DNA of 64,000 nt. Origin: Aureispira sp. CCB-E. GTDB lineage: Bacteria > Bacteroidota > Bacteroidia > Chitinophagales > Saprospiraceae. The notes beneath the pieces are model-generated. The model ran no database searches. It was not told where the DNA came from and worked only from the letters and a program-made list of their open reading frames with translations. The stretch covers positions 2,046,001-2,110,000 of the forward strand of contig NZ_CP133671.1 in the NCBI RefSeq assembly GCF_031326345.1, given 5' to 3'. The translations under genes were made by a program, and so were the position numbers. Shown one piece after another: positions 5,630-57,903 of the stretch; the first letter of the stretch is position 1, and each line of letters opens with the position of its first letter.

Positions 5630-6241
5630 ATACTCTTTTGTTCTTTTATTGTTTAATGGTGTAAATTTAGCACTTTTTGTCTAAAATACGATGTCTAAGC
5701 CGTAATATTTGCACATTTTGTTTGTTTCTCGGTAATAATTGGATCATTTATGCTATTAAAATATAAATTGTAAGAGAATTATACTAGGCTGATAATCAAT
5801 ATGCTTTGATTTTGAGTTTTAAGTTGTAAGTGGTTGTTTATCATTATTTTATGATGAGATTATTTATTCTTGTATGGTAAAAATAAAAATAAGTAGAAAA
5901 GGAATTAACCCTTCTTCAAAATAAACATTTTCCTAAATTTGCTATTAATAACAAGATATACCATACTAAAAGGAAATAGATTTGAGCAATCATGAAACAA
6001 ACAATTAAGAAATTTTAATTCCCAAAAGCATTTTATTTTAGTGCTTATATGTCTTATATTAGAGGGTGTCAACATAACTTATTTGTCACAAATAAGTTTT
6101 GAACATTTAAAATGACTTACCTGATTTTTATACAAATTTTACTCTTGTACATAACTATCTTCACCAATCGACTCCCAATCGAAGATAAATTCCCAACTTT
6201 ATTAGATTTAGATCAAAATAACTAACAAACTCTTTTTTACA
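5630..6241. other. Intergenic region with an operator-like palindrome
   Basis: About 610 AT-rich bases with no gene that I can support. The only clear structure is the inverted repeat at 6076-6098, listed separately. Confidence 0.5.
6076..6098. promoter_or_regulatory. Perfect inverted repeat upstream of the secreted protease
   Basis: AACTTATTTG and CAAATAAGTT are separated by TCA. The 10-bp perfect arms lie about 145 bases before the protease start, with no T run, so an operator is more likely than a terminator. Confidence 0.4.
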
Positions 6242-24241: not shown

Positions 24242-25720
24242 TTATTGAATGATTAATCGACGAACAAAATGTGTATTTGCTGTCTCCACCAACACCTGAT
24301 AAACTCCTGGTGATAAGTGCTCAATATTAAGATCATGTCTATTTTGATGCACTTGTTCTTCCATCAAAAGCCGCCCACACATATCAATAATTCTTAGTTG
24401 TAAGGGCTCTTTTATCAATGTGTTTACTTTAACACTGACTGTATTAGAGTGGTGAACAGGATTGGGGTAGACCAAGATATTGGCATCTAAATTACAATCA
24501 GTAAGTTTAGTTGTAACAATGGGAGAGTAACTAAAGCTCCCATCAAAATCTACTTGTCGAAGCCTAAAATAGTTCTGGACAAATATTTCCTTGAAAAGAA
24601 AATCATAATGTTGTGTTTCTGTACTGTTGCCTCTACTAGGAACTTGACCAATTTTAGTCCAGTTGATTCCATCCACACTGTGCTCTATTTGGAAATAGTT
24701 GTTGTTGAGTTCCATTGCAGTACTCCAACTCAACTGCGTCTGTTCGCAATCACTAAATGCTGTAAAAGATGAAAGTTCGATAGGGAACGTAATGTCTTCA
24801 TCTAGAATAGTATACCTTGTAGAACGATTGGCTTGTGCATCACAGTTGGCATCACTAATGATTAATCCTCCTTGCGGATTAGCAAGTGTAAGAACGACAT
24901 CTTCGTCTGGTTCATCTATAAAATCGTCGTTGACACTAAAATTGGGCGCAATACTTACCACCGAACTAGGAGAACCATCATAATTTCCTTCAGGAATGAT
25001 AAAAGTAGTGGTATGGTTGAAGTCATTTGAAGAAGATGCAGAACCACCGGTTATATTCAAATCGACACCCAAACCACCAGATGGAACACGACCATTTACA
25101 ATCAAATTAGGAATATTGCCACCGCTAGCTTCTGTGTCACTATAAGCATTTTTTTCAAATTCTACGACAGGAGCTAGTCCTGTAATTTCTACCAAATCTA
25201 TAAAGTTGCCAACAGTTTGATTTCCTGAAGCCGTACTAATGGGCTGCAAGAGGATTCTAATTAGAGTGTTACCATGTGTATTGGTATAATTTCCAGAGTA
25301 TTGGACCCAATTCGTATTTCCTGTTCCAAAACGAAGTATTTGGACTTCAGCGCCAGGAGGACCAATTAACAAACGAGCACTATCTAAGCCAGAACGACCT
25401 CGATGGTAAAATGACCATGTAAAAGATTCATTGTTGAACATACAAATTTCAACATACAAATCCGAAGGTTGTGTTGCATTTAATTCGATGTGTTGCTGAC
25501 CACTAGCAGAGGTTACCCCATTAAAAGGACTTCTCCAAAATTCCATCAACCCAGAACTAGAAGTACTGCTCCAACCATCTACTAGGGAATGATGGTAGAA
25601 TCTAAAGGAATTGGGGGGATTGGTGGGGGTTTCAAAATCAGAATTTAGAATAACACGAGCCTGGCTGAACATGGTTAGGGGCATGCAGCAGACTAATAAC
25701 GAGACGATTAGAACTTTCAT
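24242..25720 (-). CDS. Secreted Calx-beta-like protein with T9SS sorting domain, copy 1
   Basis: A 492-residue secreted protein. It has a signal peptide (MKVLIVSLLVCCMPLTMFSQ), then an N-terminal jelly-roll-like region of about 155 residues (DFETP, then WSFYHRGRSGLDSARLLIGP). A Calx-beta-like domain follows (about 180-310, with INEPDEDVVLTLANPQGG-type ending), then an approximately 85-residue linker domain beginning PIELSSF. It ends with a T9SS type A domain (VYPNPVHHSN, GVYQVLVE, RRLIIQ). Adhesive or glycan-binding roles are typical of such layouts, with no catalytic residues visible. It is a close paralogue of the protein at 26094, same strand, 373 bases away. Confidence 0.85.
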   Translation of the reverse strand: MKVLIVSLLVCCMPLTMFSQARVILNSDFETPTNPPNSFRFYHHSLVDGWSSTSSSGLMEFWRSPFNGVTSASGQQHIELNATQPSDLYVEICMFNNESFTWSFYHRGRSGLDSARLLIGPPGAEVQILRFGTGNTNWVQYSGNYTNTHGNTLIRILLQPISTASGNQTVGNFIDLVEITGLAPVVEFEKNAYSDTEASGGNIPNLIVNGRVPSGGLGVDLNITGGSASSSNDFNHTTTFIIPEGNYDGSPSSVVSIAPNFSVNDDFIDEPDEDVVLTLANPQGGLIISDANCDAQANRSTRYTILDEDITFPIELSSFTAFSDCEQTQLSWSTAMELNNNYFQIEHSVDGINWTKIGQVPSRGNSTETQHYDFLFKEIFVQNYFRLRQVDFDGSFSYSPIVTTKLTDCNLDANILVYPNPVHHSNTVSVKVNTLIKEPLQLRIIDMCGRLLMEEQVHQNRHDLNIEHLSPGVYQVLVETANTHFVRRLIIQ

Positions 25721-26093: not shown

Positions 26094-27575
26094 CTATTGA
26101 ATGATTAATCGACGGATAAAATGACTATTGGTAGTTTCAATAACAACTTGATAAACTCCCGAAGGCAAGTTTTGGGTACTGAGTAGATGGTGATGGGAGT
26201 CTACTTTTTCTTTAAATAATGTTCGCCCACAAACATCAATTACTTTTACTTGTAAAGGACTTATTGATGCCGTGTTGATGGCTAGATGTACCATATTTTG
26301 TTTTATAACAGGATTAGGATAAAGGGCTATATTGGTATTTAAGTTACAATTAGGAGCAGCTCTTGAAACAATGGGAGAATGGCTAAAACTTCCATCAAAA
26401 TCAATTTGAGTAAGTCTATAGTAACTTTGACTAAATACTTGCGAATGCATATATTGATAATATTGAGTTTGGGTGCTATTCCCTTGACCAAGTATTTTGC
26501 CTATTGTTGCCCAGCTGCTTCCATCCAGACTATGTTCTATTTTAAAATAGTTATTGTTTAGTTCAGACGTAGTACTCCATTGTAATAGCGTTTGTTGGCA
26601 GTCGCTTGACGCTTCAAAAGAAGAAAGTTCTATTGGCAAGGTAGCATCATCATCAAGAATGGTATAAGTCGTTACGCGATTAATTTGCCCATTGCAGTTA
26701 GCATCGTTAATTAGCAAGTTCCCTTGTGGATTGGCAAGCGAAATTTCGATAGTTTCATCAGGTTCGTTTAGGTTATCATCACTGATACTCAAATTACTTT
26801 GAATACTAAGAGCTGTGTTGGATGTCCCATCGTAAATACCTTCGGGGATTATAAACCGTTGTGTATGATTATAATCCAAACCCAATTGTGCATTTCCTCC
26901 TGTTATCACCAAATCAATAGATAAGCCCCCAGATGGTATGGCACCATTGACCAGAAGTTTTGGGATATTGCCACCGCTATTTTCGGTATCGTTATATTGA
27001 ATTTGCTCAAACTCTACTAGAGGAGCCAATCCCGTAACTTCTACTTTGTCAATAAAATTTCCTATTGTCAAGTTATTAGAAGCAGTATGAAGAGGTTGAA
27101 GCTTAAAACGAATGCTAGCGTTTCCATGTGTATTGGTATAACTACCTGCATATTGTATCCAGCTCGTATTGTTGGTTCCAAATCGGATGATTTCTACCTC
27201 GGCATTGGGCGGACCAATTAATAAACGGGCACTGTCTATTCCTGACCTTCCCCTATGATAAAAAGACCAGTTTAGGGATTCATTATCAAACATACAAACA
27301 TCGAAATACAAATCTGCGGGCTCGGTTGCATTCATTTCGATGTGCTGTTGACCACTTGCAGCAGTAACCCCATTGTGAGCATTTCGCCAAAACTCTATTA
27401 AGTTAGAACTAGCGGTTGTGCTCCAACCATCTACCAATGAGTCCTGAAAAAGAAAGAAACTGTTGGCGGTACCAATGACAGGTGTTTCAAAATCCGAATT
27501 TAATAAAGAACGTGCTTGTCCGAATAGACTGTGGCTGAAAGCAACACACCATATTATTATTAGGGGAAATCTCAT
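26094..27575 (-). CDS. Secreted Calx-beta-like protein with T9SS sorting domain, copy 2
   Basis: A 493-residue paralogue of the upstream-numbered neighbour at 24242, aligned end to end with very few gaps. It has a signal peptide (MRFPLIIIWCVAFSHSLFGQ), the same jelly-roll region (SWSFYHRG corresponds to NWSFYHRG), a Calx-beta-like segment, a PIELSSF linker domain and a T9SS sorting domain (LYPNPVIKQN, GVYQVVIE, RRLIIQ). The pair arose by tandem duplication. No terminator is evident between them, and each has a large upstream gap, so independent promoters are likely. Confidence 0.85.
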   Translation of the reverse strand: MRFPLIIIWCVAFSHSLFGQARSLLNSDFETPVIGTANSFFLFQDSLVDGWSTTASSNLIEFWRNAHNGVTAASGQQHIEMNATEPADLYFDVCMFDNESLNWSFYHRGRSGIDSARLLIGPPNAEVEIIRFGTNNTSWIQYAGSYTNTHGNASIRFKLQPLHTASNNLTIGNFIDKVEVTGLAPLVEFEQIQYNDTENSGGNIPKLLVNGAIPSGGLSIDLVITGGNAQLGLDYNHTQRFIIPEGIYDGTSNTALSIQSNLSISDDNLNEPDETIEISLANPQGNLLINDANCNGQINRVTTYTILDDDATLPIELSSFEASSDCQQTLLQWSTTSELNNNYFKIEHSLDGSSWATIGKILGQGNSTQTQYYQYMHSQVFSQSYYRLTQIDFDGSFSHSPIVSRAAPNCNLNTNIALYPNPVIKQNMVHLAINTASISPLQVKVIDVCGRTLFKEKVDSHHHLLSTQNLPSGVYQVVIETTNSHFIRRLIIQ

Positions 27576-30315: not shown

Positions 30316-30482
30316 ATTATTTTCCTTTATGAACAGAAACCCTTGCTCTGCCACTGAGCTACCGCTCCAATTGAGTAAAATTTTTTCAAAGCTGAATTGT
30401 ATATTAAAAAACAATATACATATTCGTAATCGTGGAGCAGACAAGAATCGAACTTGTGCACTAGGCTTTGAGGAAATATAAT
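30316..30482 (-). ncRNA. Circularly permuted tRNA-like gene (3' half precedes 5' half)
   Basis: Transcribed leftward. First comes a tRNA 3' half: AGCCT, variable AGTGC, T arm ACAAG-TTCGATT-CTTGT (30441-30457), acceptor CTGCTCC (30434-30440), discriminator A. After a spacer of about 64 bases with an AT hairpin comes a tRNA 5' half: acceptor GGAGCGG (30362-30368), TA, D arm GCTC-AGTGGCA-GAGC, then AAGGGT. The two acceptor strands pair over all seven positions (one G-U). The 5' anticodon-side strand AGGGTTT pairs with AAAGCCT (one mismatch). Beyond it, AGGAAAATAAT pairs with ATTATATTTCCT (one bulge), giving a helix-bulge-helix like that of permuted tRNA precursors. The anticodon is uncertain. 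Alternatives: two decayed tRNAs, or another structured RNA. Confidence 0.45.
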
Positions 30483-30655
30483 TTTCTAAAGAAAGTTTTA
30501 AACTATAAAGCTGCAGAGCGAAAGACTAAAACTGACTCCCCGAATCATGGACAACATTTATTGGAGTCACATGAGTTCGATGGTAATAACAATTCATCTA
30601 ATGCTAAGACTAGCTCTGTTATTGCTACGCCGCAAAGCAGCGGTCATTGCCTTGA
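30483..30655 (-). ncRNA. Structured non-coding leader of the tRNA-like unit
   Basis: This segment starts right after the stop codon of the 249-residue protein. It holds an 8-bp stem (GTAATAAC with GTTATTGC, one wobble), a CCGC/GCGG hairpin near 30630-30643, and a 7-bp stem TGACTCC/GGAGTCA (30532-30571 region). On the minus strand the last reads TGACTCCA, 22 bases, then GGAGTCA, the same order of acceptor-like arms as in the permuted tRNA downstream. No T arm or D arm can be fitted here, so it is at most a degenerate second unit. No tmRNA-type tag frame was found. Confidence 0.35.
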
Positions 30656-57793: not shown

Positions 57794-57877
57794 GCCCTGA
57801 TGGCGGAACTGGTAGACGCGCTGGATTCAAAATCCAGTTCCCGCAAGGGAGTGGGGGTTCGATTCCCCCTCGGGGCA
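57794..57877 (+). tRNA. tRNA-Leu(CAA)
   Basis: The 84-base class II tRNA is complete: acceptor GCCCTGA/TCGGGGC, D arm with CTGGTAGACGC, anticodon stem CTGGA/TCCAG with loop TTCAAAA (anticodon CAA), long variable arm TTCCCGCAAGGGAG, T arm GGGGG-TTCGATT-CCCCC, discriminator A. CCA is not encoded. Its 3' end is followed by an integrase gene, so it is the probable attachment site of the element that fills the rest of the window. Confidence 0.97.
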
Positions 57878-57903
57878 CTCAAGGTGCTTTACATTGCTAC
57901 CAG

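Follow-up and report, generated by a model that had tools for sequence, protein, structure and literature searches.

The window analysed here is a stretch of 64,000 nucleotides from Aureispira sp. CCB-E, on whose minus strand a gene for a 249-residue DUF7873 protein (31405-30656; PF25283, 266 bits against a cut-off of 27, E 4.5e-79) is followed, in this order, by a 5′ domain (about 30618-30514), a permuted tRNA-like module (30457-30345), a tRNA-like unit in ordinary order (30294-30214) and a hairpin plus T run (30213-30174). The initial annotation had singled out the module for its inverted halves, a T arm with the acceptor 3′ strand preceding the acceptor 5′ strand with the D arm, and the minus strand does read this way. 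The upstream half (30457-30434), supported by sequence, strict scan, covariation and the covariance model R1 (see below), consists of the T arm ACAAG-TTCGATT-CTTGT (30457-30441) and the acceptor 3′ strand CTGCTCC (30440-30434). The discriminator A (30433) and the loop closing the acceptor stem together span 65 nt (30433-30369), compared with 6 to 238 nt in homologues. The downstream half (30368-30345; sequence, strict scan and covariation) carries the acceptor 5′ strand GGAGCGG (30368-30362), then TA, and the D arm GCTC-AGTGGCA-GAGC (30359-30345). The two acceptor strands pair at all seven positions (7/7), as had been claimed, and the outer ends pair as well: the strand at 30482-30471, which forms the 5′ side of a module-closing helix supported by covariation among homologues, pairs with 30326-30316. 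The segment 30344-30316 holds this 3′ strand of the closing helix together with a stub, AGG (30343-30341), that pairs with CCT (30465-30463).

To describe such modules we used a strict pattern with at least four of five pairs in the T stem, 7/7 acceptor pairs of which at least five are Watson-Crick, and a D stem of at least three pairs. Scanned over both strands of the whole window, this pattern returns two sites, namely the minus-strand module and one AT-rich plus-strand site whose T arm is poorer. The covariance model R1, built from 38 modules including one from the close relative L038, scores 54.4 bits at the window module, its top match genome-wide. In the window, the only entries from ARAGORN and from Rfam at gathering score are a tRNA-Phe at 30294-30214 and a tRNA-Leu near 57794-57878; the permuted module itself is absent from both listings, and the RNA of about 450 nt as a whole has no Rfam family at gathering score.

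The 5′ domain (30618-30514) comprises a helix, P1, formed by CAGAGC (30618-30613) with GCTCTG (30519-30514) around part of a period-6 tract (TAGTCTTAGCATTAG); its support comes from an anchored search and from lag-6 periodicity, an unanchored search for P1 being uninformative. Taking the best of several candidates at each site, the anchored search finds P1 as a 5/5 helix in 19 of 21 Bacteroidota sites with several two-sided changes (e.g., AGAGC/GCTCT, TGGAG/CTCCA, GAAGC/GCTTC and TGAAC/GTTCA); P1 is doubtful in L051, and none is found in L150 and L165. The period-six tracts, roughly NAGRCT, raise the lag-6 identity of the RNAs to 0.309 versus 0.259 (z 15.1), with the peak at lag 6 and with lags 3 and 9 slightly under shuffles. 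At least three NRRNYT units occur in 18 of 35 loci versus 8 of 700 shuffles. In the DUF7873 coding sequences, used as a control, lag 6 is also raised (0.287, z 8.6) and lags 3 and 9 are higher still (0.298 and 0.296), as codons predict.

The ordinary-order tRNA-like unit (30294-30214; RF00005, 62.1 bits) is called by ARAGORN as tRNA-Phe with a GAA anticodon, on what we take to be a leucine-like body; further tRNA-Phe genes of this genome lie at L025 (one) and in an array (two). An ordinary-order tRNA follows the module in all eight Bacteroidota loci that have the RNA in cis, with anticodons GAA (three), GCC (two), CAT, CCT or unreadable, and also in L070, L128, L129, L134 and L135; in L034, L065, L066 and L133 ARAGORN tRNAs occur within 700 nt, placed 3′ of the hairpin. 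The 3′ hairpin, TGGCAGTCGC-AAGGTAAGA-GCGGCTGCCA (30213-30185), is followed by the T run (to 30174), and together they are likely the terminator and the end of the RNA. Hairpins of at least 10 bp with a GG(N)TA loop lie 3′ of the last module in 26 of 35 loci versus 5/700 shuffles and 7/390 upstream segments; the 10-bp limit was adopted because a 6-bp test had a high background (157/700 shuffles).

We then placed the module among 52 loci with a DUF7873 homologue, some of them close kin, drawn from 26 genome contigs, 11 viral contigs, phage records (11/52) and plasmid records (4/4), the window's own record being L036. Within 650 nt downstream of the DUF7873 gene the strict module occurs in 35 of the 52 regions, versus 4 of 590 control windows taken from these loci, and mononucleotide shuffles yield it once in 2600; the permuted module in the window is not a chance arrangement. 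Seventeen loci fail the strict test downstream (11 of Bacteroidota plus L061, L062, L065, L066, L130 and L132). L130 has two strict modules at 603 and 780 nt, beyond the 650-nt limit, and in L062 (35.0 bits) and L066 (27.3 bits) R1 finds weaker modules immediately after the gene; the sequence after the gene is short in L050 (310 nt) and L059 (400 nt). To remove the selection for paired acceptors that the strict test imposes, modules were re-chosen by their T and D arms alone: their acceptors pair 7/7 in 38 of 48 (mean 6.1), versus 45 of 2226 cross-locus combinations put through the same test (mean 3.6), and no 7/7 pairing appears at offsets of 1 or 2.

Covariation among homologues, the check that the initial annotation had proposed, bears out the pairing of the acceptors. 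All seven acceptor positions show at least three pair types each, and two-sided changes occur at 15 of 16 module pairs in an alignment (A5) of 38 of the 45 modules (loops up to 36 nt, L055 left out), in which the percentage paired is inflated by selection and the two-sided changes are not. For instance, both acceptor strands changed together in L037 and L038 (CTGTTCC/GGAACGG); a bulged normal-order pairing put forward earlier as a rival (GGAG-T-CAG near 30529-30537) has other bases in these same two loci, which speaks against it. A 12-sequence alignment of last modules with their flanks (A3; L060 and L131 dropped from 14) folds into the module plus two closing helices and an internal loop, with two-sided changes at 27 of 32 pairs, and the equivalent closing helices covary across these actinobacterial, planctomycete, plasmid and phage RNAs. 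The 35 loci hold 45 modules, ten loci having two in tandem (L033, L034, L035, L057, L063, L131, L133, L136, L137 and L138).

The module and the DUF7873 gene are linked in Bacteroidota, Actinomycetota, Planctomycetota, Verrucomicrobiota, plasmids and phages, and in phages L032, L033, L034 and L133 the DUF7873 gene lies within a tRNA array. In Bacteroidota the RNA adjoins the gene in 8 of 19 loci. In eight of the other 11 genomes (G398, G399, G400, G401, G404, G405, G409 and G412) it is located elsewhere, and these copies retain the 5′ domain, module, ordinary tRNA and hairpin. Among the loci examined no RNA copy was seen in G402, G407 and G411; the best R1 match in G402 is a tandem tRNA pair, and those in G407 and G411 are modules of another, TROVE-side kind on TROVE contigs. 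Among 39 relatives, searched with R1 at E 1e-9 (a search that recovered the window module) and with PF25283, DUF7873 is present in four, the RNA in the same four and in none of the 35 others; R1 would miss long-loop copies such as L049. R1 matches in five other genomes of this set are tandem tRNAs or other tRNA-like modules. The four-of-four co-occurrence, which is in cis and includes three genomes of one genus, would have a chance probability of about 1e-5 if the genomes were independent, which they are not fully. A phylum-wide R1 search gave matches at E ≤1e-9 in 47 of 395 genomes, and the 30 loci returned were 13 tandem tRNAs, 6 free modules that by eye are without the surroundings of this RNA, and 11 failing the strict test; we treat this as a weak negative because its stricter filters missed the window's own module.

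The DUF7873 protein of the window has a 100% match in Aureispira sp. CCB-QB1. Alignment A1 combines the window with 31 of 36 other related loci (L040, L045, L046, L050 and L052 left out), and alignment A2, the basis of the structure, also drops L038, L041 and L053 (X residues). The AlphaFold2 model reaches a mean pLDDT of 87 and a pTM of 0.72 and has no significant structural match in the PDB, so RNA binding draws no support from structure. The literature searched yielded no mention of DUF7873 and no description of this tRNA-mimic RNA.

Taken together, sequence and covariation indicate an RNA with a 5′ domain bearing period-6 repeats and a pairing 5′ helix, followed by one or two modules predicted to fold acceptor, T and D arms from inverted halves, with a helix into the rest of the RNA at the place of the anticodon arm, and then, in many loci, by an ordinary-order tRNA-like unit, plus a 3′ hairpin. 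The permuted module thus forms one part of a larger RNA, unannotated so far, that bacteria and phages have in common. The reading that we favour, and consider fairly probable, is that of a Y-RNA-like tRNA-mimic scaffold RNA for DUF7873, found also in large phages, with both partnership and function being putative.

The initial annotation had called the site a permuted tRNA or a tRNA-derived RNA of new type; the second description fits, and the first does not. Permuted tRNA genes of algae and archaea likewise place the 3′ half before the 5′ half (PMC3978253, PMC3218864), and a true gene of this kind, with its ends spliced into a translating tRNA, would agree with the inverted halves, the pairing of acceptors and outer ends, and the two RtcB-family genes in the genome. 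We nevertheless regard it as very improbable and rejected it. The absence of a firm anticodon, admitted at the outset, proves to be the absence of any readable anticodon arm, by eye a 3-bp stub, an internal loop and a long helix that continues into further domains of the larger RNA; homologues share no anticodon loop, ten of the 35 loci carry tandem modules, and the tRNA splicing endonuclease (PF01974) has no match in the genome, with four of 14 controls, all archaea, positive. Unlike for the algal and archaeal genes, no joined tRNA is expected here, and the RNA probably does not become a working tRNA. The statement that no bacterial case was established also needs amending, the tRNA-like module of YrlA being an inverted-order bacterial precedent: according to PMC11472068, bacterial Y RNA can be superposed on tRNA once a circular permutation is allowed for, and YrlA is described as combining an Rsr-tethering stem with a tRNA-like domain on which DusA and TruB act and which binds PNPase (PMC8394870), with phage occurrences also on record (PMC12282133). 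The consensus line of its Rfam family, RF02553, runs T arm, acceptor hairpin and D arm inside a stem, which here likewise closes at the anticodon-arm position. This identical build, with RF02553 matches in several homologous RNAs (18.6-37.1 bits; e.g., 35.9 in L032, 37.1 and 21.0 in L034), might suggest an ordinary Ro60-bound Y RNA lying beside DUF7873 by coincidence, which we hold to be quite unlikely. All these scores are under the gathering score of 69, the window is without a match at E up to 10, and only L136 of nine loci matches at E ≤0.05 (28.3 bits). Weak whole-genome matches were discounted because 12 of the 14 control genomes also give RF02553 matches at E up to 1, probably where ordinary tRNA genes in tandem imitate the inverted order. 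TROVE (PF05731) has no match in this genome or in any of the eight Bacteroidota genomes with the RNA in cis, and is present in 13 of 41 DUF7873-bearing genomes or records. The Ro-binding motif, which we take to be GNCGAAN0-1G in the stem, is not enriched (6/35 RNAs versus 131/700 shuffles), a weak test in that only one of seven TROVE-side stretches shows it on the strand of the module; these seven stretches give no period-6 signal (z 0.9, from 2915 bases only). Plain Y RNA identity was rejected on the sub-gathering RF02553 scores and the lack of TROVE, and we claim no YrlA membership because, in addition, the window is unmatched. With DUF7873 in place of Ro60/Rsr, a period-6 5′ domain, a GG(N)TA 3′ hairpin and tandem modules or an added ordinary-order tRNA, the likeness to YrlA appears to lie in module construction and not in family membership.

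Two other readings turn on what the modules might do. If RNase P and 3′ processing were to cleave the modules in the acceptor loop, the RNA would consist of two pieces and expose a free CCA end that might be aminoacylated, as in permuted tmRNA, which shares inverted acceptor strands with a loop between. CCA stands immediately 3′ of the discriminator in 19 of 45 modules, as against about 1 in 64 by chance, and the permuted tmRNA family RF04321 gives weak matches in the window (17.4 bits) and L034 (19.3 bits). These scores are far under the gathering score of 47, the window module reads ACGAT and has no CCA, only two of ten second modules have one, and the discriminators are mixed (A 19, T 14, G 8, C 4). 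The modules also possess a D stem, and tmRNA lacks one. We judge the two-piece form unlikely and keep it open because a closed-loop mimic leaves the CCA after the discriminator unexplained. Alternatively, the anticodon-less tRNA surface may act as a decoy that occupies tRNA-cleaving or tRNA-binding enzymes of host defence, an idea also raised for YrlA (PMC7790460) and in keeping with phage copies inside tRNA arrays (L032, L033, L034 and L133) and with a module that offers no anticodon arm to cut. We see this as unlikely, given that the window copy is chromosomal, with no phage family among seven neighbouring genes scanned, and that a decoy alone explains neither DUF7873 nor the period-6 tract. 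The large structured RNAs GOLLD and ROOL lie near tRNA genes and resemble the present RNA in this respect. They too belong to bacteria and phages (PMC12286853), whereas the RNA described here is smaller and composed of tRNA-like modules, and the window and 12 homologous loci gave no Rfam match to either.

On the favoured scaffold reading, a non-coding tRNA-mimic RNA of about 450 nt would be made as part of the DUF7873 transcript or next to it. DUF7873 would bind it, as the genomic linkage suggests, with the period-6 tract as the probable binding site; the tRNA-shaped modules may recruit or occupy a tRNA-acting enzyme, much as the YrlA tRNA-like module does in Ro60 particles. In phages the RNA might help maintain or protect the pool of tRNAs, and the copy in this chromosome could be a domesticated or shared version. 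A more specific model, speculative and unlikely, is a new class of ribonucleoprotein in which a DUF7873 multimer sits on the period-6 repeats, each subunit covering six nucleotides, and displays an array of two or three tRNA-shaped modules, of which some would have processed CCA ends. This array would serve phages and bacteria as a Ro60-free platform for capturing, charging or protecting enzymes that handle tRNA. If the scaffold reading is true, this would be a second lineage of permuted tRNA-mimic RNAs that does not depend on Ro60, has a protein partner of its own and ranges widely across bacteria and large phages; the unannotated gap next to DUF7873 in several phage tRNA arrays would also be accounted for. 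The scaffold reading also makes the function of DUF7873 testable and provides a system for asking why phages carry tRNA mimics.

Several further tRNA-like sites came to light. In this genome, which has no TROVE match, two more permuted tRNA-like R1 matches (42.9 and 41.2 bits) lie on the minus strand at G000:C1:1967841-1968082 (L179), preceding an rtcB gene by about 1.3-1.5 kb; one of the two satisfies the strict pattern (module 6017-6077), and a 722-residue protein nearby has no Pfam match over cut-off. At G000:C1:1563874-1567468 (L075) the genome has about 24 tRNA genes of many isotypes, like phage tRNA arrays. A different conserved tRNA-like RNA of Bacteroidota, found in L155 and L158 (TROVE contigs of G407 and G411), L185, L189, L190 and L195, has GTGCCGTAGA...TACTTCG ahead of a permuted module and lies partly beside TROVE genes; these are probably Ro60-bound Y RNAs of Bacteroidota. 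In Rhizobium phage RHph_TM21B (L032, 9764-10568) a TROVE gene is immediately preceded by three permuted modules, of which two coincide with weak YrlA matches; this phage carries both kinds of RNA. Tandem ordinary tRNA genes mimic the permuted order and match the module models (control genomes; L180-L209; L213, L217 and L219), and are thus a source of false permuted-tRNA calls. Gordonia phage Phendrix (L034, 3063-3591) shows an unannotated tmRNA match (RF00023, 89 bits) inside its tRNA array. Elsewhere in the window, the minus strand at 24242-25720 and 26094-27575 encodes tandem, paralogue-like proteins of 492 and 493 residues.
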